A DNA stretch of 58,952 nucleotides from an uncultured Methylobacter sp. (lineage in GTDB: Bacteria > Pseudomonadota > Gammaproteobacteria > Methylococcales > Methylomonadaceae), in contig CAILCX010000069.1 in assembly GCA_903832775.1 (NCBI GenBank), positions 1-58,952 of the forward strand. Reading direction: 5' to 3'. Below the pieces are notes generated by a model. It searched no databases. It was not told the origin of the DNA and saw only the letters and a program-made list of their open reading frames with translations. Position numbers and translations under genes: made by a program. Shown here one piece after another: positions 47,933-58,952 of this stretch (position 1 is its first letter; each line of letters begins with the position of its first letter).

Positions 47933-48799
47933 ATGATTAAAAGCATGACCGCATTTGCAGGTAATGAAATTGAAATAGGTGAGTTAACCTTAAGCTGTGA
48001 ACTGCGGACAGTCAATCATCGTTACTGTGATATTAGCTTAAGATTGCCGGATCGTCTCCGTTTTGTTGAAGCCGAACTACGAACCGCTATTACAGATAAG
48101 ATTAATAGGGGCAAAGTCGAGCTGTCATTGAATTATAAAAAGCAGGCTAAAAACGGCATTAGTTTTAGTATTAATAAGGATGCCGTAACTTCGTTACTTG
48201 CGGCGGCGGCTGGCATAGAGCAGCAAATGCAAGGCTGCCTGTCATTTTCAGCATTGGATGTACTTGCGTTCCCTGGCATTCAACAGGAACCCGATATTGA
48301 CAAAGTTCAACTAAATGATGCACTCATTACTCTCGTTAATCAAACGCTGACGCAACTGTTGGAGGCACGAGAAAGAGAAGGAACCCAACTTAGATTATTG
48401 ATCGAAGAGCGCTGCACAAAGATGCTGGGCTTTGTAGTATTAGCCGGCAAACGAATGCCCGAAGTACTTTTGTCAATTCGCAATAAATTAATAGCACGCA
48501 TTACCGAACTGGTAGCACAACCTGATTTTGACCGCCTGGAACAGGAACTTGTTTTACTAACTCAAAAACTGGACATCACAGAAGAGCTTGACCGGCTAGA
48601 AACACATATCAAAGAAGTATTGCGGGTTGTTAAACAAAACGTCCCCGTTGGCAGGCGTCTAGATTTTTTAATGCAAGAACTAAACCGCGAAGCCAACACC
48701 TTAGGTTCTAAGTCTACAGACAAAGAAATGACCCAAATAGCAATAGAACTTAAGGTGTTAATTGAGCAAATTCGCGAACAGATACAAAATATTGAGTGA
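47933..48799 (+). CDS. yicC: YicC family endoribonuclease
   Basis: A 288-residue YicC-like protein, with MIKSMTAFAG at the start, LRTVNHRYCDISLRLPDR, and RLDFLMQELNREANTLGSKS near the end. YicC relatives act in RNA decay (sRNA/RNase activity reported in E. coli). Its stop TGA lies inside the 23-bp attL repeat, so the integrated element uses the 3' end of this gene and rebuilds the last codons exactly. In most relatives gmk follows; here the element does. Confidence 0.93.
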   Translation: MIKSMTAFAGNEIEIGELTLSCELRTVNHRYCDISLRLPDRLRFVEAELRTAITDKINRGKVELSLNYKKQAKNGISFSINKDAVTSLLAAAAGIEQQMQGCLSFSALDVLAFPGIQQEPDIDKVQLNDALITLVNQTLTQLLEAREREGTQLRLLIEERCTKMLGFVVLAGKRMPEVLLSIRNKLIARITELVAQPDFDRLEQELVLLTQKLDITEELDRLETHIKEVLRVVKQNVPVGRRLDFLMQELNREANTLGSKSTDKEMTQIAIELKVLIEQIREQIQNIE

Positions 48800-48801
48800 T
48801 G
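48779..48801. repeat. attL, 23-bp direct repeat at the yicC 3' end
   Basis: The 23 bases starting CAGATACAAAATATTGAG match 55933-55955 exactly. They include the last codons and stop of yicC. A repeat that ends a host gene and recurs at the far end of an integrase-bearing segment is the normal sign of site-specific integration. Similarity past the core continues in both copies because a second element left end follows attR. Confidence 0.88.
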
Positions 48802-48841
48802 TTTTAGACTGTCTCAGACCTACCCACAAACCCACTTAAGG

Positions 48842-48863
48842 CCGCGTATATCGCGGTTTTTTT
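48842..48863 (+). terminator. intrinsic terminator after yicC, element copy 1
   Basis: CCGCG (48842-48846) and CGCGG (48852-48856) form a 5-bp stem around TATAT with seven T after it. It lies in the element, 43 bp after the yicC stop, so it can shield the element from yicC transcription. A diverged copy follows attR at 55995-56017. Confidence 0.78.
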
Positions 48864-48882
48864 GTGTCTATCGGTTTCATGC

Positions 48883-48916
48883 AATCCCACGAAAGCGCAC
48901 AATAAAGGTGTACCAA
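48883..48916. repeat. subterminal repeat copy 1 (possible integrase arm site)
   Basis: AATCCCAC, then AAGCGCACAA and AAAGGTGTACCAA with slight spacing, 34 bases in all. GGTGTACCAA occurs twice here (48907-48916 and 48919-48928, 12 bp apart). Copies 2 and 3 are at 55827-55860 and 56037-56070. Position at both element ends suggests integrase arm-type binding. Confidence 0.6.
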
Positions 48917-48978
48917 TAGGTGTACCAAGCGCATAATTATTTAAAATTTGGTGGTACATACCCAGAAGGGGATAGATC

Positions 48979-50238
48979 GTGGCTAAACTGACTGACAGAC
49001 AAATAAAGGCTTGGATAAAAAATGGCGAGTATTTCGAGGGGCGTAGCGATGGTGACGGCCTTTATATAAGCTATCGAGAAAACTTTGCAATTCCTATCTG
49101 GCGGTTTCGTTACAAAATAAAAGGAGCATCAAGATGGATGACCATTGGCAGCTATTCCGACCTATCCCTTGCTGACGCCAGAAGAACGGCTAAAGAGTTA
49201 CGAGCAAGAGTTGCCTTAGGTTATGACGTAGCAACTGAAAAACAGGAGCGTAAAGCAGAGGCAACCGGTAAGATTGAAGCCAAGAAAAACGCTTTTACCA
49301 CCGGCGACTTAGCTGATGAGTTTTTCGCCAAAAATATACTTGGCCGCTGGAAGCATCCCAATATTGTTAGGTCAAGAATAGAAAAGGACATTAAGCCCAA
49401 TATTGGAAAAATGCCTATTGACCAAGTTAAACCCATGCATATAGCAAAAATGCTCGATAGCATTAACGAGCGTGGAGCGCCAACCGTATCAACCAATGTT
49501 CTTAGGTGGACAAAGAAAATATTTGATTATGCAATCAAACGCCACTTAATCGAGTTTAATCCTGCATCAGCTTTTGACCTGTCCGATGCTGGCGGTAAAC
49601 AAGAAGCCCGAACCCGCACTTTATCGCATGACGAACTGGTAAAATTGTTTGTTGCTATGCGGAAAACAAAAGGTTTCTCCTCAATCAATACTCTGACTAT
49701 TAGCCTGTTGTTAATGCTTGGCGTTAGAAAAGGCGAGTTGGTTACCGCAAAAATATCGGCTTTTGACTTGGAGGCCGCAACTTGGAAATTAACAACTTTC
49801 GACACAAAAACCAGCGCCGAAATTATCATCCCTTTACCAGATCAGGCAGTTGAGGCGTTGCGCAATTTAATCCGATTATCTGATGGTAACGATTACCTGT
49901 TACCGGCGCGGCAATATCAGGATAGACGATTGCCTCACATTCATGAGAATACTTTAAACGTGGCACTGTCTAAGGTTAAAGCCAACATGATCGGCGTGGA
50001 GCCTTTTACAATTCATGACTTTAGGCGCACAGCAAGAACCCATTTAGCCGCGCTTGGAGTTGAATCACATATCGCTGAAAGATGCCTTAATCACAAGATC
50101 AAAGGCATTGAGGGCATTTATAACCGGCATGATTATTTTGAAGAACGTAAGGCCGCATTGCAAAAACTGGCGAATTACCTTGAAGCTTGCGAAGCTGGCA
50201 AAGATTGGAACGTAACGCCAATAAGAAAAGCCGTATAA
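48979..50238 (+). CDS. int: tyrosine integrase with DUF4102 arm-binding domain
   Basis: A 419-residue P4-type recombinase. The N-terminal DUF4102-like domain (about 1-95) ends in SYSDLSLADARRTAKELR. The core-binding domain is at about 105-200. The catalytic domain has Arg about 251 (LGVRKGEL), His-x-x-Arg at about 346-349 (HDFRRTARTH), LNHK at about 371, and the Tyr in GIYNRHDY (381 or 386). It directs integration and excision at the yicC repeat. A partial copy lies at 56093. Confidence 0.92.
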   Translation: MAKLTDRQIKAWIKNGEYFEGRSDGDGLYISYRENFAIPIWRFRYKIKGASRWMTIGSYSDLSLADARRTAKELRARVALGYDVATEKQERKAEATGKIEAKKNAFTTGDLADEFFAKNILGRWKHPNIVRSRIEKDIKPNIGKMPIDQVKPMHIAKMLDSINERGAPTVSTNVLRWTKKIFDYAIKRHLIEFNPASAFDLSDAGGKQEARTRTLSHDELVKLFVAMRKTKGFSSINTLTISLLLMLGVRKGELVTAKISAFDLEAATWKLTTFDTKTSAEIIIPLPDQAVEALRNLIRLSDGNDYLLPARQYQDRRLPHIHENTLNVALSKVKANMIGVEPFTIHDFRRTARTHLAALGVESHIAERCLNHKIKGIEGIYNRHDYFEERKAALQKLANYLEACEAGKDWNVTPIRKAV

Positions 50239-50339
50239 TCAAATTTAACCGGATAGCCTTAGCGGGCGATAAGTGGGACTCGTTACCCTGCTTCCGGTTA
50301 ATCCAATCGTAACGATTACACTTTAACGAGGTGTTTATT

Positions 50340-50843
50340 TTGGCTAACCTGTCATTCACTTTTAAGAATTACATCAATCTGCATGCAGATGAATGGAGCG
50401 CAATAGATGACTTCATGGACCGGAACGACTCAACTGCATTATCTGTCATCATTCAACATAACCATGAAATTACATTCCATATGAGGCGCTTCATTGCCGA
50501 CCTTGTGACCGGGAAACTAAAACGCGACCCCAATAAAAAAGCATCTACCTTTAAACGTGACTATGAAATTTATCAGGAAATTGACAGCTTGATAAATGAG
50601 GCGGATAAAAAAAATGAAAAGTGTACATTAATATCCTGTAAAGAATTGATCGCAGCTAGGATGTTTTTAACCGTTGATGCAGTTGATAAGATGTATCGCC
50701 GAGGGAAAAGAGCATGGGAAGAATACCGAGAAGATGAAAATCATGAATGTAATGAGCTGACTATAGAGTTAGATCGGGAAGCCAGGCAAGCTGAACAAGA
50801 CGCTTATATTGAATGGATGGAGAGCATGGAAAATCTAAACTAG
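50340..50843 (+). CDS. hypothetical protein in element
   Basis: A 167-residue protein I do not recognise, read from a TTG at 50340 that follows GAGG with eight bases of space; a GTG at 50331 in the same frame has no ribosome site. It is acidic at the C-terminus (EEYREDENHE and EAEQDAYIEWMESMEN-like), with a Lys/Arg-rich middle. No transmembrane or catalytic motif. It lies between int and alpA, where satellite elements often carry host-interaction genes. Confidence 0.6.
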   Translation: MANLSFTFKNYINLHADEWSAIDDFMDRNDSTALSVIIQHNHEITFHMRRFIADLVTGKLKRDPNKKASTFKRDYEIYQEIDSLINEADKKNEKCTLISCKELIAARMFLTVDAVDKMYRRGKRAWEEYREDENHECNELTIELDREARQAEQDAYIEWMESMENLN

Positions 50844-50935
50844 GTTTTTCAATAGAGTAAATTGTAAGTCATCATTAAAGTGTAGCCATAGGCCTACACA
50901 ATCCCGCGTAGGCGCTAACCTGAACAGGAAAGCAC

Positions 50936-51202
50936 ATGGCTATGACCAGCGCAAATTTACCCGTAATCAATCCACTTTTACGCCGACCAATTATTGAACA
51001 GGTAACCGGCGACAGCAGGTCAACCATATACCGCAAAATCGGAAAAGGCTTATTCACTAAGCCGGTTCAAATTGGCGGTGATCGTGTTGCTTGGCCTCAA
51101 AATGAAATAGTAGCCATTAACGCCGCCCGCATTGCTGGCAAGTCTGATGCTGAAATTATGGCATTGGTTATTGAACTTGAAGCAGCGAGGATAAATCTAT
51201 AA
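50936..51202 (+). CDS. alpA: AlpA-family transcriptional regulator
   Basis: An 88-residue helix-turn-helix protein. STIYRKIGKGLFTKPVQIGG and RVAWPQNEI are the AlpA signature. In P4-like elements and Gram-negative PICIs AlpA activates the element's excision or replication genes. Its stop overlaps the next small frame (TAATG), so it begins the replication operon. An earlier internal ATG at 50942 is also possible. Confidence 0.85.
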   Translation: MAMTSANLPVINPLLRRPIIEQVTGDSRSTIYRKIGKGLFTKPVQIGGDRVAWPQNEIVAINAARIAGKSDAEIMALVIELEAARINL

Positions 51203-51360
51203 TGGCAGAGGGCATAAAAAAGGCCGCTATCTGTCCGACCAGAGCAGCGACCCACTACAAAAACTTTCACATTCATTTTACATCAACTGCCAAACGGGTA
51301 AAGGCCAAACTTAGCAAAGCTTTAGCATGGTTATCTGTTGTAGGGGGTTCGATATGTTAG
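51202..51360 (+). CDS. small 52-residue protein between alpA and the replicase
   Basis: ATG at 51202 overlaps the alpA stop, and TAG at 51358-51360 overlaps the replicase start at 51354. Its N-terminus reads MAEGIKKAAICPTRAA, with a basic middle and a hydrophobic end. Coupling on both sides and a clean frame argue that it is translated. It may simply carry ribosomes from alpA to the replicase. No family recognised. Confidence 0.55.
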   Translation: MAEGIKKAAICPTRAATHYKNFHIHFTSTAKRVKAKLSKALAWLSVVGGSIC

Positions 51361-53579
51361 GGCAAGTCGATATTACATTTTTACCAAAACTCAACCACAC
51401 GACAAATTTTAAGGCTCACTCTTTAATATCGGCATTGGATGAAATAGCCGGTGATAAATATGCCTCAGAAATAAATAGACTCAGATTACTTAATCTTGAT
51501 GAGTACAAAGAACAGAAAAAAAAATTACCGGCATTTTGTTTTAATGGAACCTTTAACGGCATTCTGACAAACGATAACTTCAAGCAATCCAGCGAGCTAT
51601 TTAGTTTTGATATTGATGGATTAGGCGCGGCAACGATTGAAGCAGACAAAGCAAAAATTGCATCAATACCAAGTACGGTTTTCTGTTTTGTCAGTCCAAG
51701 CGGAAAAGGCTTAAAAGGTGCGCTACGCATTGCACCCGATACAATCAAATCTGATGCGGATTTTAAGCAGGTATATCCCCAAGTTGAGGCAATGTTTGCA
51801 AAAGCCGGCTTCAAGCTGGATAAAGCCTGTAAAGACGTTAGACGAATCTGTTTTGTTAGTCATGACCCGAAACTATACAGTAATTATGATGCAGAAATAT
51901 ATTCGGTATCTGCCCCGCTTCAAACAAAACAGGACCCAGCAAAACCACCTATAAAGATAAAGCAACAATCAATTAACTTTAGCAACGAGTTATTGTGTAT
52001 TGATCTATGCACAGCTATTTTACAAAATGCCAGCGCCGGCAATCGACACGAAGCAAGGCTTAGAGCTGGAAAGCTGGCGGGCGGTTATATAGCCGCCGGT
52101 CAAGTCGATGAGCAAAAACTGACTGATATTTTATTAAGTGCTTCAGATGGTATTTCAAAAGGCGGGATGACCTCAGCCTCAGAAAGAAAAACAATTTTTG
52201 AGGCTATTAATAAAGGCAAGTTAAGCCCACTGGATAAGCCGGCTTATTCCGTAGAAATGGATTTTGAGGCAATGCTCACTAATCAGAAGCAAAGAAAAGA
52301 GCAAAGTAACCAAAATACCGACCAGAACAGCGCCACAAGCGATTTTAGCGAAGAATCAGAAAGTGAGCCGCCCTTTAAGCGTGTAAGCCTTGCTGATGCC
52401 CTCAGTAACCCACCTGAACAACAGCGTTATATTTGGGGTGAACGTATTCCCGCCGATGAATTAACGCTTTTGGCTGCGCATGGCGGGACAGGAAAAAGCT
52501 TGCTTGCCTTGCAACTTGGAGCGCATACCTCAACCGGTAATCTGTTTTTGGGGCTTGCGACTGAACAGGTCAAGACGCTGTTTTTTAGTGCTGAAGATGC
52601 CACTAACACCATACGCCGCCGTATTGGTGCAATCTGTAAAGCTGATGCTTTAGACCTTGCTCAGGTTGCAGAAAACTTGATTGTATTGGATGCCACAGAA
52701 ACACCTTGTTTGTTTCATGAGGTGAGCGACAAAGGCGTTAGGCGCGGAGAAATCACACGATATTATTCAGAGTTAAAAAAGATAATTTTGGATGAGGGCA
52801 TAAGGTTTTTGATCGTGGACAATGCCAGTGATACGTTTGGCGCTAATCCCATTGATCGGCAAGCCGTAACCAAATTTATCAGGGCATTGGTGGGACTTGT
52901 GAGAAATGCGGGCGGTGCAGTGTTGCTGTTGTCGCATGTGAATAAAAACACGTCTAAGGCTGGAAAAAATCAATCTGATACAGAGGGCTATGCTGATAGC
53001 GCGGCATGGCATAACGCCGCACGTAGCCGGTTATTTTTAAACGCCATTGATGAGCTTGGCAATCTGTCATTAACCCATCAAAAAAACAATCTTGGAACAA
53101 AACAGCCGGTTTTGAATATTGCCTTTCGTGATGAGGGTTCGAGCTTATACGCCGCCGATTCAGATCAGTTAATCGAAGCGGGAGCTGGTAAAGCGTTAGT
53201 AACTTCCATGATGCGTAACCTACACAAAAAACCCATACTCAAGTTAATACATGAGTTTTATTGCCGTGAGGAATGGATAAGTCCATCACCAAACAGCGCC
53301 CAAACTAACGCTTTCGCTTTGCTAAAGAATGAAGCTGACTTCCCACTCAGTACAAAACACGCTGATAAAGCGGAGTGCCTTGCAATCGTGAGGGAGTTGG
53401 AGCGTGATAGTTTTTTGATAAAAGAAACTTATAAAAAACTTGATCGGCATGACGGGCAGCGGTGGGCGTTGACTGATGCAGGATTGACTTTTATTGATGA
53501 GCCGCTACCAGATCGCATAACTGTTGAAACGCTAGAACCGGCTGAACTGATACCTGATGAAAATATTGAAATCTTGTAG
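51354..53579 (+). CDS. primase-helicase fusion (replicase)
   Basis: A 741-residue protein from ATG 51354 (GGGGG site ahead; the frame is open to 51327). The N-terminal half has a VirE-N/BT4734-like domain (about 65-180), FSFDIDGLG and SPSGKGLKGALRI. The C-terminal half is a RepA-like AAA/RecA ATPase, with Walker A HGGTGKS at about 377-383 and Walker B FLIVDNASDTF. A final winged-helix-like region follows. The repeat array directly after it would be its origin. Confidence 0.82.
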   Translation: MLGQVDITFLPKLNHTTNFKAHSLISALDEIAGDKYASEINRLRLLNLDEYKEQKKKLPAFCFNGTFNGILTNDNFKQSSELFSFDIDGLGAATIEADKAKIASIPSTVFCFVSPSGKGLKGALRIAPDTIKSDADFKQVYPQVEAMFAKAGFKLDKACKDVRRICFVSHDPKLYSNYDAEIYSVSAPLQTKQDPAKPPIKIKQQSINFSNELLCIDLCTAILQNASAGNRHEARLRAGKLAGGYIAAGQVDEQKLTDILLSASDGISKGGMTSASERKTIFEAINKGKLSPLDKPAYSVEMDFEAMLTNQKQRKEQSNQNTDQNSATSDFSEESESEPPFKRVSLADALSNPPEQQRYIWGERIPADELTLLAAHGGTGKSLLALQLGAHTSTGNLFLGLATEQVKTLFFSAEDATNTIRRRIGAICKADALDLAQVAENLIVLDATETPCLFHEVSDKGVRRGEITRYYSELKKIILDEGIRFLIVDNASDTFGANPIDRQAVTKFIRALVGLVRNAGGAVLLLSHVNKNTSKAGKNQSDTEGYADSAAWHNAARSRLFLNAIDELGNLSLTHQKNNLGTKQPVLNIAFRDEGSSLYAADSDQLIEAGAGKALVTSMMRNLHKKPILKLIHEFYCREEWISPSPNSAQTNAFALLKNEADFPLSTKHADKAECLAIVRELERDSFLIKETYKKLDRHDGQRWALTDAGLTFIDEPLPDRITVETLEPAELIPDENIEIL

Positions 53580-53582
53580 TTA

Positions 53583-53801
53583 TGCGGGAGGTGCGGGAGG
53601 TTGCGGGAGCTTATTATTTTTCTTAACTTAACGCACTTCCCGCACCCGTTCGCCGAACCTGCGGGAGGTTCGTGCGGGAGCACCTCAGGGGGTATGGGGG
53701 GGACGCGCCGCCGCACACTTCCTAAATAGTGCCCGCCACAAAATCACATGATTACCTGCAACCTGCCCGTAATTAAATATCAAAGTTGGGAACTTCCCGC
53801 A
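53583..53801. repeat. TGCGGGAG iteron-like array, candidate origin
   Basis: TGCGGGAG occurs at 53583, 53592, 53602, 53660 and 53673. The reverse form TTCCCGCA occurs at 53637 and 53794. The first three are 9-10 bp apart, close to one helix turn. A 7-bp inverted repeat (53654-53660 and 53666-53672) is embedded. The block is richer in GC than its surroundings and lies between the replicase stop and the OB-like gene, where an origin for a replicase-bearing element is expected. Confidence 0.65.
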
Positions 53802-53824
53802 CTTTCAAACAGGAAATATAAAAA

Positions 53825-54169
53825 ATGACTAATGAAAACAACAGCGAAAAAACAATCTTTTCCAGACTTCAAGAACTAAAGCAACAGGCGGAATCTCAGC
53901 CGTTAACGTGGAATCCAAAAAAGGGCGATTATCTTATAGGGACTTTCAAGTCTTACGGGCGCAACGAAGAAAACCGTTTCACTCATATTGTTATTGAAGA
54001 TCAGAAGAAAATTCCCCATCGTGTCAGTGTTGACGCTGGACGGACTAAACAGCTTTTAGAAGCTAAAGTAACAAAAGGCGATTTAATCTCAATTCAGTTT
54101 TTAGGAAAGGAGAGGAATTATTATGGCCGTAATTCAGAAGTTTTTAATTGGATAATCGACAAAGCATAA
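53825..54169 (+). CDS. probable OB-fold (ssDNA-binding-like) protein
   Basis: A 114-residue protein with beta-strand rhythm: KKGDYLIGTFKSYGR, HIVIEDQKKIPHRVSVDAG, VTKGDLISIQFLGKERNY. GD-x-x-x-G-x-x and a closing GKE turn resemble small OB-fold proteins of phages and plasmids. A role beside the replicase as single-strand binder is inference. Ribosome site AGGAAAT just before the ATG. Confidence 0.6.
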   Translation: MTNENNSEKTIFSRLQELKQQAESQPLTWNPKKGDYLIGTFKSYGRNEENRFTHIVIEDQKKIPHRVSVDAGRTKQLLEAKVTKGDLISIQFLGKERNYYGRNSEVFNWIIDKA

Positions 54170-54233
54170 CCAGTTTGGGCAGTTGGTCATCAGATCATGA
54201 CTGCCCTGTTATCTAAAGTAGATAAAAGTAGAT

Positions 54234-54413
54234 ATGCAAATGAATGATGATGACACTTATTTTAACCAGTCAGCAGAGAGCCTGGCACTGTTTACCCTGT
54301 TTGATGCTGTACCGGATTATTGCCTTACGCAGAAATTCTGGGAGCAGATCGGGAAGCTATGCCCTGATGACTTAATCCATAAATTGCAAAATAGACGAGC
54401 GAACAATGGCTAA
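54234..54413 (+). CDS. small 59-residue protein
   Basis: Read by hand from ATG 54234. It is acidic at the start (MQMNDDDTYFNQSAESLALF) and has KFWEQIGKLCPDDLI. It overlaps the next frame by 8 bp (ATGGCTAA). Coding status is uncertain, but the overlap and length suggest a real pair of small genes. Confidence 0.4.
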   Translation: MQMNDDDTYFNQSAESLALFTLFDAVPDYCLTQKFWEQIGKLCPDDLIHKLQNRRANNG

Positions 54414-54558
54414 ATTTAATTACATGGCTTACTGGCAGAAACAACAGAAGAAGTTGCTCGACAGTAAGCTAGGTTCGCAAAAAATACCGACTAAAAAGGG
54501 CAATTCAAATTCAACACCTGATAGATATCTTAATTCAGCAGTGGCGCTGGTTAGGTGA
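54406..54558 (+). CDS. small 50-residue basic protein
   Basis: Read by hand from ATG 54406, overlapping the previous frame by 8 bp. It has MAKFNYMAYWQKQQKKLLD and is rich in Lys and Gln. No family recognised. A third frame (54561-54653, 30 residues) follows three bases later, but I leave it as unsupported. Confidence 0.35.
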   Translation: MAKFNYMAYWQKQQKKLLDSKLGSQKIPTKKGNSNSTPDRYLNSAVALVR

Positions 54559-54704
54559 TCATGGTTGACGCAAAATCAACACCTGTTATTCAACAAAATA
54601 GTGGTGCGCTTTGGGCCAGTATCGGTGCGGTTTGGTGCGCAGGTTTCCGTTAATAAAGTTACGCTTTAAACCTAATAAAAATTAACATCACAGGATAAAA
54701 ATAT

Positions 54705-55298
54705 ATGGCGACTAAAAAGAAAGCTCCACCCGAACCACCCAAGAATAAGCGCATATTGAATGTCTACCAACAAGCGGATGATGACCCAGACGAGGTGCTT
54801 AGTAAAACCCTACTCAGTCCATTGGTGACGGCGGCGAATACTATGCAGACCTGGGAGAACATGAACACTGTCTCAGGATTACGCGCGGCCCTGGTTGATC
54901 AGGTTACAAAGGTACATGATGGTGATTTGAGTAGACCTGAATCTATGCTATTGACTCAGGCGCACACCTTAGACCTACTTTTTAACAAGCTGGCAGAAAA
55001 GGCGCACATTCAATCACACATGCCACACTACGAGTCATTCTTACGGCTGGCATTTAAGGCTCAAGGCCAATGCAGAGCGACACTTGAAACGCTGGCAGCA
55101 ATCAAGAACCCACCTGTCATCTTTGCCAAGCAAGCGAACATCAGCAATGGTCATCAACAGATCAATAACGGTACGCAAGCGGCAAACAATCAAAAACAAC
55201 CAAACGAACTTTTAACGGAGATACCTAATGCGACACTGGACAGCAGAGGAACGGGCCAAGCAATCGGCATTAATTCAGAACTGGCGACCGTGGGATAA
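54705..55298 (+). CDS. conserved-looking protein of unknown function
   Basis: A 197-residue soluble protein. The N-terminus is Lys/Pro-rich (KKKAPPEPPKNKRI), the middle helical (LDLLFNKLAEKAHI, AFKAQGQCRATLETLAAI) and a tail with KNPPVIFAKQANISNG and HQQINNG. I associate the KNPPV-FAKQANI-NG wording with short unannotated genes of integrated elements in proteobacteria, without a function. Its 3' end overlaps the next frame by 71 bp. A DNA packaging or regulatory role is possible; I see no proof. Confidence 0.6.
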   Translation: MATKKKAPPEPPKNKRILNVYQQADDDPDEVLSKTLLSPLVTAANTMQTWENMNTVSGLRAALVDQVTKVHDGDLSRPESMLLTQAHTLDLLFNKLAEKAHIQSHMPHYESFLRLAFKAQGQCRATLETLAAIKNPPVIFAKQANISNGHQQINNGTQAANNQKQPNELLTEIPNATLDSRGTGQAIGINSELATVG

Positions 55299-55434
55299 AT
55301 CGACAGGGGCTAAGACGAAAGAGGGCAAAGCCATATCTGCACAGAACGCATTTAAGGGCGGTTGGCGACAGGAATTTAAAGAACTGGCGGCAATGCTTAA
55401 GGAACAAAAAGGCGCTATGAAGTTGATCAGGTAA
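55228..55434 (+). CDS. small protein with STGAKTKEGKAISAQNA motif
   Basis: A 68-residue basic protein from ATG 55228, overlapping the end of the previous gene by 71 bp in another frame. It has RHWTAEERAKQSALIQNW and the motif STGAKTKEGKAISAQNAFKGG, which recurs in short element-borne proteins I cannot name further. The long overlap with a preceding gene in a second frame suggests these two go together in evolution. Confidence 0.6.
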   Translation: MRHWTAEERAKQSALIQNWRPWDKSTGAKTKEGKAISAQNAFKGGWRQEFKELAAMLKEQKGAMKLIR

Positions 55435-55932
55435 ATTGAGTGCAATGGTTACGGGCAAGGTTACACCCGGGCGCGCGTGGATTGAGAGATAGTGTGGTTT
55501 CCAGACTATCTATTCCAGCGTTACACCCTAAAGTAGGGTTAAATAGGATTAGTTTCGGAGTAATAAAAGATCGGGCGCAAATCGGCGTAATCTTTTGCGC
55601 TTGAAATCATCCTGGGAGAATTTACCCAAGTTAACAAAGTACGGGAAAGTGATACCAGTCTGGTTAAAAATATGTGACAGCAAATAATCCTGCACTCAAA
55701 TTGAGGGCGGGAAATGTTGGCAAATGTTAGCATTCAGTCGGCAGTCATTGGCGCTGTTTTTGGGGCGTAAAACTCTAACGTATTACAGAATTATTTTACT
55801 TTTTTTCACTGATTTTAGACTTTTATAATCCCACCTAAGCGCACAAAAAAGGTGTATCAATGCGTGTACCACCATTTCATTTTAAATATTAAATAATTTA
55901 AAAATCAATGGCTTTATCGCTTAATATGTATT
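55435..55932. other. 498-bp right-end region of the element
   Basis: No convincing gene. A diverged copy of the subterminal repeat lies at 55827-55860, and GTGTACCACC at about 55864-55873 mirrors the GGTGGTAC seen at 48951. TTTTAGACT at 55813-55821 echoes the bases after the attL core. The rest shows no clear structure. Confidence 0.5.
55827..55860. repeat. subterminal repeat copy 2
   Basis: AATCCCAC, AAGCGCACAA and AAAGGTGTATCAA, 34 bases, the right-end counterpart of 48883-48916 in the same orientation. It is close enough to attR to be an integrase arm site, or it may be the left-end relic of an older insertion. Confidence 0.55.
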
Positions 55933-55955
55933 CAGATACAAAATATTGAGTGATG
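55933..55955. repeat. attR, 23-bp direct repeat
   Basis: An exact copy of 48779-48801, including the yicC stop context, here outside any gene. It marks the right end of the element and doubles as the attL of the tandem remnant that follows. Confidence 0.88.
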
Positions 55956-55994
55956 CTTCAGACTATCCCGACCTGACCCACTAACCCATTCAAA

Positions 55995-56017
55995 GCCTCG
56001 TAAATCGGGGCTTTTTT
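55995..56017 (+). terminator. intrinsic terminator, element copy 2
   Basis: GCCTCG (55995-56000) and CGGGGC (56006-56011) pair with one G-T and are followed by six T. It is the diverged counterpart of 48842-48863, which confirms that the sequence after attR is another element's left end. Confidence 0.7.
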
Positions 56018-56036
56018 GTGCCTGTTGGTTTCATGT

Positions 56037-56070
56037 AATCCCACACAAGCGCACAATAAAGGTGTACCAA
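56037..56070. repeat. subterminal repeat copy 3
   Basis: AATCCCAC, AAGCGCACAA and AAAGGTGTACCAA, 34 bases, nearly identical to copy 1 at 48883. It lacks the second GGTGTACCAA of copy 1. Confidence 0.6.
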
Positions 56071-56092: not shown

Positions 56093-56472
56093 GTGGTACT
56101 GACTATTAGCCTCTTGTTAATGCTTGGCGTTAGAAAAGGAGAGCTGGTTACTGCAAAAATATCGGCTTTTGACTTGGAGGCCGCAACTTGGAAATTAACA
56201 ACTTTCGACACAAAAACCAGCGCCGAAATTATCATCCCTTTACCACATCAGGCAGTTGAGGCGTTGCGCAATTGTTCGATTATCTGATTGTAACGATTAC
56301 CTGTTACCTGCGAGGCAATTTCAAGATAGACGATTGCCACACATTCATGAGAATACTTTAAACGTGGCACTGTCTAAGGTTAAGGCCAACATGCTCGGCG
56401 TGGAGCCTTTTACAATTCATGACTTCAGGCGCACAGCAAGAACCCATTTAGCCGCACTTGGAGTTGAATCAC
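56093..56472 (+). pseudogene. integrase remnant of a second tandem element
   Basis: About 374 bp nearly identical to 49693-50068 of the intact integrase. The GGTGGTAC that lies before the integrase gene is joined directly to CTGACTATTAG from the middle of it, a deletion equal to 736 bp of copy 1. A 2-base loss near 56274 shifts the frame. Similarity ends just after GAGTTGAATCAC, so the catalytic Tyr end is also absent. It cannot make a working enzyme. Confidence 0.88.
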
Positions 56473-56739: not shown

Positions 56740-58952
56740 ATGGCAAAACATTCTGTTGAGAAAACTCGACGTCAATATAATAGATGGGTTGCAACTGAAA
56801 CCCTTGAAGACTATGCGCTTCGCTATTCACCTGCCAGCTTTCGAAAATGGTCGCCTCTATTGCTGGCTAATACAGCCATAGGCAGTATCTCTTTTTTAGC
56901 ACTGGAAGCTATTGGGGCTAGCCTTTTACTGAGCTATGGCTACAGCAATGCAGTATGGGCCATTCTTTTTGCATCGGTCTTCATATTTGGCGCTGGTTTA
57001 CCTATTTCATACTACGCTGCACGTTATAATATTGATATTGACTTATTAACCCGTAGTGCCGGATTTGGTTATGTAGGCTCAACGATTACCTCGTTAATAT
57101 ACGCGTCCTTCTGCTTTATTTTTTTTGCTTTGGAAGCCTCTATTATGGCACAGGCACTTGAATTATATTTTAAGCTGCCTTTGTATTTGGGCTATGTTCT
57201 GTGTTCACTGATCATTATTCCTATTGTTTTCTATGGCATTACTGCTATCAACCGCTTACATTTGTGGACGCAGCCTATATGGCTAATTTTGATGTTACTT
57301 CCACTTTTTTTTCTCTATACACAAGTTCCAGATACCATGGAAGCTTTAAGTCAGTTTAAAGGGCAGCTTTCTGGCAGTAATGAATTTGATCCCTATTTTT
57401 TTGGTATTGCTACCGGAATTTCATTTTCATTGATTGCTCAGATTGGCGAGCAAGTAGACTATTTACGTTTCATGCCGGATAAGCACCAAGGTAATCGTTC
57501 AATCTGGTGGATGTCCATGTTAGCGGCCGGCCCCGGCTGGATTATTTTAGGGTGTTTCAAACAACTGGTAGGCGTACTGCTCGCTTCAGTTGTGGTATTG
57601 GCTGGTTTAGCTTATACAGAGGCAAAAGAACCGGTACACATGTATTATATTGCATATCGCTATGTGTTTGATCATCCTGGTCTTGCCCTTTTATTCAGTA
57701 CGTTTTTTGTTATTACCTCTCAAGTCAAGATCAATGTCACCAACGCTTATGCCGGATCATTGGCTTGGTCAAATTTTTTTTCCAGAGTTACCCATGCACA
57801 CCCGGGACGCGTGGTATGGTTGATATTCAATATTGGCATTGCCTTGCTATTGATGGAGATGGGCATTTTTCAAGCCTTGCAAAAAGTACTCGGACTGTAT
57901 TCCAATGTCGCAATTGCCTGGATTTCGGCAGTTGTCGCTGATTTAACCATCAACAAAGTTTTAAAGCTCAGTCCGCCTATTGTTGAATTCAAACGCGCTC
58001 ATCTCTACGACTATAATCCTGTCGGCTTTGTAAGTATGTTAGTCGCTTCGTTAACATCTATTATTGCCTTTACCGGTGCATTTGGGCTTTATGCACAAGC
58101 CTATTCATGGTTAATTGCGATGACTATGAGTTTTATGTTGGTTCCTGTTATCGCTAAACTAACTAAGGGCAAATATTATATTGCCAGACATAACGTGCAT
58201 TTTAAAAACTCGGATCAATTACATACCTGTGGGGTATGTGATCAGCAATATGTTCAAACCGATTTTGCCTACTGCACTTTTTATGATGTGCCTATTTGTT
58301 CACTATGCTGCACGCTAGATTCAAATTGTAAGGACTCATGTAAACCTAAAAACGTTATGCCCTTTCAGCAGTTTGCAATCTATGTGATTGATGCCATTTT
58401 CAAGCATAGGCTATCAAGGCTAGCAACCCTTAGAGTTGTTAGATTCTGCAAGTTGTCAGGCTTTGGGCTGGGAATCGTAGCCATTGCTTTCTGGTCGACT
58501 TATACGTTAACTAACGATTTACTCGCTCCTGAATTTCTTGCAGCGTTAAAAGTTAACTTACTGATCCTGTTTTTTGTTCTGGGAATCATGATCTGTATTT
58601 TCGCTTGGTGGGTTATTCTCGGACAAGAAAGTCAGGTATTGGCAGAAACCGAACTTGAAGAACAAAATGTACAATTGTCGGTTGAAATTGCCGAGCGCAA
58701 ACAGATAGAAGGCAAGTTAAAACACAGTGAACAACAATTTCGGGCATTACTTGAATCAACTCCAGATCCGATGGTAATTGTCAATAGTAGCGGCATTATC
58801 AATATAGCAAATCATCAAGCATTAGATTTATTTGGCTATACAAAAAGCGAATTGCTTGGGCAATCCGTTGATATTTTGTTTAAAGATGGGTTAAGTTACT
58901 TGCGTACCAAATTGAGTGAACATGACATTGATGATACTCAGCCTGCATCGCC
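56740..58952 (+). CDS. permease-like sensor with PAS domain, truncated by window
   Basis: An unbroken frame of 737 codons from ATG 56740, running off the window. Residues about 37-480 hold about twelve hydrophobic segments resembling NCS1 purine/cytosine permeases (EQVDYLRFMPD and NVTNAYAGSLAWSNF). About 495-535 is cysteine-rich (TCGVCDQQY, ICSLCC, CKDSC), possibly a zinc site. Two more segments follow at about 570-625, then a coiled coil and a PAS domain from about 660 (LLESTPDPMVIV). A histidine kinase probably follows. Analogous in plan to CbrA, which uses an SSS-type permease. Confidence 0.8.
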   Translation, partial: MAKHSVEKTRRQYNRWVATETLEDYALRYSPASFRKWSPLLLANTAIGSISFLALEAIGASLLLSYGYSNAVWAILFASVFIFGAGLPISYYAARYNIDIDLLTRSAGFGYVGSTITSLIYASFCFIFFALEASIMAQALELYFKLPLYLGYVLCSLIIIPIVFYGITAINRLHLWTQPIWLILMLLPLFFLYTQVPDTMEALSQFKGQLSGSNEFDPYFFGIATGISFSLIAQIGEQVDYLRFMPDKHQGNRSIWWMSMLAAGPGWIILGCFKQLVGVLLASVVVLAGLAYTEAKEPVHMYYIAYRYVFDHPGLALLFSTFFVITSQVKINVTNAYAGSLAWSNFFSRVTHAHPGRVVWLIFNIGIALLLMEMGIFQALQKVLGLYSNVAIAWISAVVADLTINKVLKLSPPIVEFKRAHLYDYNPVGFVSMLVASLTSIIAFTGAFGLYAQAYSWLIAMTMSFMLVPVIAKLTKGKYYIARHNVHFKNSDQLHTCGVCDQQYVQTDFAYCTFYDVPICSLCCTLDSNCKDSCKPKNVMPFQQFAIYVIDAIFKHRLSRLATLRVVRFCKLSGFGLGIVAIAFWSTYTLTNDLLAPEFLAALKVNLLILFFVLGIMICIFAWWVILGQESQVLAETELEEQNVQLSVEIAERKQIEGKLKHSEQQFRALLESTPDPMVIVNSSGIINIANHQALDLFGYTKSELLGQSVDILFKDGLSYLRTKLSEHDIDDTQPAS

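Follow-up and report, generated by a model that had tools for sequence, protein, structure and literature searches.

The segment that follows the yicC gene in an uncultured Methylobacter sp. raises the question of what kind of mobile element it is and how such an element travels. The window analysed here is the whole of a 58,952-nucleotide stretch (GCA_903832775.1, contig CAILCX010000069.1) from a host genome of 3.86 Mb in 215 contigs, coded G000 among 151 genomes of the order Methylococcales. Between two exact repeats it holds a 7.2-kb island with an integrase, an AlpA regulator, a replication protein and a terminal gene pair, orf197-orf68. Judged from its sequence, we take this island to be a small phage satellite resembling phage-inducible chromosomal islands (PICIs) or phage-inducible chromosomal minimalist islands (PICMIs), with a probability of roughly 0.6. 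The insertion between exact repeats, the restoration of yicC and the arm geometry are firm as sequence-level results, the mobile island is real and probably live, and it is built, and probably works, like a minimal PICI.

Structure of the island

47933 to 48799, +: yicC, host target gene, intact (TIGR00255, E 4.4e-76)
48779 to 48801, +: attL core, 23 bp, spanning the yicC 3′ end and stop codon (exact copy at 55933)
48907 to 48927, +: left doubled arm site, two copies of GGTGTACCA with a 12-bp period (Tandem Repeats Finder, period 12 at 48906-48928)
48979 to 50238, +: tyrosine integrase, 419 aa (Pfam Arm-DNA-bind_3, Phage_int_M, Phage_integrase)
50246 to 50314, +: int-alpA RNA (RF02996; 40.3 bits against a gathering cut-off of 35.8)
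50331 to 50843, +: orf170, no assigned function (a stretch 38% identical at the equivalent position in genome G149)
50936 to 51202, +: AlpA regulator/excisionase (PF05930, E 3.5e-9)
51202 to 51360, +: orf52, small open reading frame (ORF) call without a PHROGs match
51327 to 53579, +: replication protein, 750 aa, with BT4734_N primase-polymerase (prim-pol) and AAA_25 helicase in one ORF (Pfam, PHROGs)
53583 to 53680, no strand: candidate origin with GCGGGAGG repeats (repeat count, weak statistics)
53825 to 54169, +: orf114, placed where we read a single-stranded DNA-binding protein (SSB)-like gene in the G149 element
54234 to 54413, +: orf59 (ORF call)
54406 to 54558, +: orf50 (ORF call)
54705 to 55298, +: orf197, conserved helical protein with a QAN..G.QQ(V/I)NNG-type motif (homologues in the order; structure model)
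55228 to 55434, +: orf68, overlapping orf197, with a W.PW..STG..T.EGKA-type motif (downstream of orf197 in relatives)
55851 to 55871, +: right doubled arm site, GGTGTATCA/CGTGTACCA (paired-site search, similar to the left site)
55933 to 55955, +: attR core, 23 bp, exact copy of 48779-48801

The exact 23-bp repeats that the initial annotation had placed around the segment are borne out: identical direct copies lie at 48779-48801 and 55933-55955 and bound an element of 7,154 bp, and an arithmetic estimate puts the chance of an exact 23-mer pair within 9 kb at about 1e-6. Because the first copy coincides with the yicC 3′ terminus, stop codon included, yicC (47933-48799) remains whole. AT skew is positive across the element (0.09-0.16) and about zero or negative outside it, and GC content gives no contrast between element and flanks. 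From yicC outward the order is int, int-alpA RNA, orf170, alpA, orf52, prim-pol/helicase, repeats, orf114, orf59, orf50, orf197 and orf68, with all genes co-oriented inward, away from yicC.

Pfam matches also uphold the proposed integrase, AlpA and fused primase-helicase. The 750-aa replication protein contains the words FDID, SGKG, DVRR and GGTGKS, which we take to be functional motifs. Downstream of it, GCGGGAGG occurs in three copies, all at 53583-53680 and the only ones in the window, where 0.88 are expected; three or more appear in 4 of 100 shuffles, weak statistics that leave the origin a candidate. The absence of structural and transfer genes stands as well, in that capsid, tail, terminase, relaxase and conjugation or secretion families were not found among the element ORFs scanned with Pfam, PHROGs and NCBIfam. 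Beyond the initial annotation, the analysis brought out the paired arm sites, the int-alpA RNA, a decayed second element past attR and the overlapping terminal gene pair.

Paired arm sites around the attachment core

Relative to the core centre, the left doubled site of GGTGTACCA lies at +128 and its right counterpart at -82. The related element in G149 has its sites at +126 and -86 with another motif, of the GGGCACCA type, changed in both arms together. Paired doubled arm sites, each with a motif of its own, are present in nine of ten repeat-bounded elements, and none of 30 shuffles, which preserved base content only, reaches the score when repeat periods of 11-13 are allowed; locus L193 is bounded by repeats and has no paired doubled sites. 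This set comprises eight placements from the orf197 loci described below, the window and G149, while four placements in L182 and L202, which are repeated units, were omitted. Total arm spacing is 210-212 bp in four elements, the window included, 252-256 bp in four and 276 bp in one. A similar spacing is reported for helper-embedded PICIs (HE-PICIs), whose doubled motifs stand 81 bp ahead of the attP centre and 132 bp beyond it; in the available parts of that paper the authors find the motif only in HE-PICIs and state that it is absent from other PICIs (PMC10111431).

yicC as an insertion site

Empty sites, which the initial annotation suggested looking for in close relatives, do exist: yicC is followed directly by gmk in G120, G128 and G129, and in G106 by a different gene about 80 bp after yicC. 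Occupied sites with repeats are found in three relatives: a 6.3-kb sister element with its own repeats and a 78% identical integrase (G149), one of about 9.0 kb with 25-bp repeats (G076) and one of about 10.4 kb with 20-bp repeats, after which gmk comes next (G098). A homologous integrase, 56-77% identical, stands behind yicC in all of G067, G076, G130, G098 and G055; bounding repeats were not found in the stretches examined of G067, G130 and G055. Scars or int fragments lie behind yicC in G015, G115, G132 and G032, and yicC is an insertion hot spot here. Copies of the yicC 3′ end also occur away from yicC (G084:C26, L093:8670-8837; G125:C1:205173-205325), possibly as old attachment scars.

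The replication module varies among these elements, from prim-pol/AAA_25 here to a primase and helicase pair in G149, which we read as TOPRIM type and accompanied by an SSB; the G149 primase has matches in G076 and G055. The replication protein of the window has matches, mostly partial, in 17 of the 151 genomes.

The suggestion that yicC is a non-standard attachment site is not supported. Published work places MGIVflInd1, MGIVmi1 and elements related to Salmonella genomic island 1 (SGI1-like), tied to SXT or IncC helpers, at the yicC 3′ end (PMC8409611, PMC5397120), and in the available text Shewanella islands target it too (PMC8978831).

The int-alpA RNA

The int-alpA RNA was present in 10 of 23 chosen sources (the window, then 3/8, 5/7 and 1/7 further ones). 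Within the order, 79 of the 151 genomes have a copy above the cut-off and 84 have one at E ≤ 0.001; the RNA is not restricted to the orf197 family. Coordinates place it 1.4-2.6 kb past yicC in at least seven genomes (G000, G149, G067, G076, G130, G098 and G055), and among the 26 orf197 places listed for the order at least six have it 2.3-4.4 kb upstream. The host genome has a second copy at G000:C89:651-717 (51.1 bits).

The orf197-orf68 gene pair

Pfam, NCBIfam and PHROGs contain no convincing match for either orf197 or orf68, and the predicted structure of orf197 has a predicted local distance difference test score (pLDDT) of 78.8. We found orf197 in 21 of the 151 genomes of the order and in 5 of 398 in a phylum-wide draw, the host genome being in both; its single match there is the window copy. 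A first alignment used 21 of 26 sequences (L099, L103, L113, L121 and L126, mostly incomplete, were omitted). In a scan of 84,980 species genomes, orf197 relatives were confirmed at 250 places, 80 of which were kept for locus analysis, and IMG/VR gave 28. Cultured relatives with the pair include Methylobacter psychrophilus Z-0021, Methylomonas methanica R-45363 and Thiobacillus thioparus DSM 505.

An orf68 model finds a match on the downstream side of orf197 in 78 of the 80 genome loci and 26 of the 28 IMG/VR loci. In 77 of those 78 genome loci it lies within 0.6 kb of where the orf197 match starts, and in L206 at 1.7 kb; both genome loci without orf68 lie at contig ends. Among 38 well-flanked genome loci, out of 108 loci, an integrase is found upstream of orf197 in 27 and downstream in 3, a replication gene in 20 and 2, and AlpA in 9 and 1, with models built from those loci's own clusters. 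Direct repeats of at least 14 bp surround 12 of 46 integrase placements, in 10 loci, and enclose elements of 5.3-11.0 kb; the 46 include three from IMG/VR, and placements with short flanks were skipped. Six of the repeat-bounded loci lie at tRNA genes (L138 Pro, L161 Lys, L165 Thr, L187 Arg, L194 Met, L197 Thr). In L182, from a proteobacterial assembly, two orf197 units stand in tandem at a distance of 7,439 bp; the locus has a 170-bp repeat, and each unit carries the RNA.

Genes beside the pair in relatives

Neighbouring proteins were examined in selections of 78 and 110. Among the 110 upstream of orf197, Rha and anti-repressor families have 4-5 members each. In L187, an 11-kb repeat-bounded element at tRNA-Arg, a 689-aa protein just upstream of orf197 matched six phage records and is 30% identical to a phage “putative internal virion protein” and 41% to a “lytic tail protein”. 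Large proteins in the L216-L227 group fall to the PHROGs annotations “DNA ejection protein” (L217) and “released from the phage upon host infection” (L219), or match a phage “ejection protein” by tblastn (L226), while a 684-aa protein near orf197 in L203 belongs to phrog_5880, which has no assigned function, and a 407-aa protein there has no match. Tape-measure genes lie near the pair, before or after it, in L212, L215 (weak, E 5.5e-5), L228/L229 and L233 with its kin (IMG/VR coordinates L212:11680-17016, L228:6711-9506, L215:13118-14953); L233 carries a tail protein as well, and the genes of the IMG/VR tape-measure contigs were scanned in part.

Right flank and other elements of the host genome

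55933 to 56472, +: remnant of a second related element, left arm and internal int fragment (repeats, alignment)

Beyond attR, 55933-56070 duplicates 48779-48916 at 83% identity, and the int stretches 49693-49867 and 49873-50068 recur at 56099-56273 (97%) and 56277-56472 (95%), which we read as a decayed second related element in tandem. Further right, a gene at 56740-58950 extends past the contig end; we read its product as permease-like, with a C-terminus resembling a sensor, and it has no counterpart in the examined stretches of 20 relatives' loci. The same genome holds a second small element with int and prim-pol (G000:C86, L115:7432-11852), whose 809-aa replication protein shares the prim-pol part (∼42%) with that of the window and looks different in the remainder.

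How the element may travel

By analogy with the PICIs and PICMIs that have been studied, the life of such a satellite would begin with a helper-switched AlpA that drives excision; the prim-pol/helicase would replicate the excised circle, and the element DNA would then be carried in helper-phage virions. More tentatively, the terminal orf197-orf68 might serve as a transfer module that joins the element DNA to a borrowed delivery machine, because the pair is the conserved part and stands beside virion-ejection or tape-measure genes in some relatives and a relaxase in others. A bolder form of this idea, in which the pair is the core of a previously undescribed DNA-delivery adaptor through which small proteobacterial satellites load their DNA onto borrowed machines, some adding an ejection or tape-measure protein and others a relaxase so that virion or channel would deliver the satellite DNA, as a switchable phage/conjugation port, is speculative and we consider it unlikely.

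Several observations weigh against the satellite reading. None of 50,697 phage records contains orf197, IMG/VR scans with int and the replication protein, which reach close relatives only, found nothing, and 10 element ORFs gave no head, tail or packaging match in PHROGs. No helper phage was identified: Phage_portal, the sole helper-phage family sought in the host genome, was not found there, and that genome does encode one TraG-D_C protein. The link to virion genes is uneven: of three related large proteins of the L216-L227 group tested, L217 matched an ejection family and those of L216 and L226 have no PHROGs family, the IMG/VR tape-measure contigs L212 and L215 show no bounding repeats, tape-measure and ejection queries gave no matches in the 80 genome loci, and IMG/VR is biased toward viral genes. 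Three of the 110 upstream proteins match Mob_Pre relaxases; a motif scan assigns them to the Nitrosomonas loci L159, L192 and L202 and also flags L203. Two small Polaromonas plasmids, pW9NP1 and pH8NP1, carry orf197-orf68. The orf68 homologues on these plasmids, at L129:4582-4797 (pW9NP1) and L130:8704-8919 (pH8NP1), lie next to or near annotated orf197 homologues and are missing from the plasmids' gene tables as shown.

These relaxases and the TraG-D_C protein would suit an integrative mobilizable element that a conjugative helper moves, like the mobilizable genomic islands (MGIs) at yicC, through a hidden origin of transfer (oriT) recognised by the helper relaxase. The site itself is a published MGI target, two of five integrase matches in other families of the class (44% and 39% identical) lie behind yicC, and pH8NP1 is typed MOBV. 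Yet no relaxase or transfer family is among the scanned ORFs of the element, the three SGI1-like elements at yicC that the available text lists measure 22.8-26.0 kb against 7.2 kb here (PMC8409611, PMC5397120), the AlpA, int-alpA RNA and prim-pol plan suits satellites, and other relatives carry virion-entry genes, so that we hold this explanation to be somewhat unlikely. Distinctly less probable is a replicative integrative element that has no dedicated transfer partner and spreads by rare transduction, vesicles or uptake, with orf197-orf68 serving maintenance through copy control or stability. Such a role would agree with the pair's presence on small plasmids, one of them typed non-mobilizable, and with the absence of orf197 from the phage records, but it offers no explanation for the ejection and tape-measure genes that several lineages carry close to the pair. 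Decayed copies behind yicC in the host genome and its relatives suggest that the island, too, might be a dead leftover, as the fragment past attR is; since its main genes are open, the motif words are there, the repeats are exact and both arms are retained, we think this highly improbable.

The finding connects an RNA named merely for its position, a doubled attP arm code and a gene pair that convincingly matches no family and is also found in comparable small islands elsewhere in the Proteobacteria. We did not see these three linked in print, and the novelty of the pair rests on the family and phage-record searches and on a text search, not a sequence search, of open-licence papers. Should orf197-orf68 prove to be a transfer module, it would offer a handle on a class of hidden satellites among methane-oxidising, ammonia-oxidising and other environmental bacteria, and a way to ask how such tiny elements travel.

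Comparison with known systems

The initial annotation likened the island to Gram-negative PICIs, and in the available text the gene order and one-way transcription of those islands do match, whereas its further point, an unusual site, is not supported, given the published yicC targets. Like the element here, Gram-negative PICIs have an inward int, AlpA, a primase or replication gene, genes running one way and no structural set (PMC6092414; four-zone plan in PMC10111431), and between int and the replication genes a slot whose content varies. Their plan also has an origin downstream of the primase, where the element has the three GCGGGAGG repeats of its weakly supported candidate. They are described as 10-20 kb long (PMC10111431), against 7,154 bp here, and no capsid or other late gene is among the scanned ORFs of the element.

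PICMI, as far as the available description goes (PMC10803314), shares with the element int followed by a gene, alpA and a primase, a very small size and the lack of recognised packaging genes. It integrates at fis, which is called its hallmark, rather than at yicC, its primase is of the DUF3987/DUF5906 type rather than BT4734_N/AAA_25, and unlike PICMI the element has no gene overlapping the int end and terminates with orf197-orf68. Because both the fis hallmark and the published PICI size fail here, we assign the element to neither PICMI nor PICI.

The yicC MGIs and SGI1-like elements (MGIVflInd1, MGIVmi1, IEEcoMOD1) have the same yicC 3′-end target; in the available parts of their descriptions they carry an oriT mimic, MobI or transfer-gene homologues, whereas no such protein family was found here, and those with a listed size are larger (PMC8409611, PMC5397120). 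MobI-like or transfer proteins mark the MGIVmi1 and SGI1-like types, and an SXT-like oriT, SetCD/AcaCD sites and RdfM the MGIVflInd1 type. Elements with the int-alpA RNA (Rfam RF02996) form a broader set than the orf197 elements, and in them, as here, the RNA adjoins int and precedes alpA. The island fits the definition of the orf197-orf68 family proposed here, with the overlapping pair last and int upstream on the same strand. The yicC site is the known part of this system; the gene pair and its element family are the new part, together with the arm-site geometry and the int-alpA RNA link.

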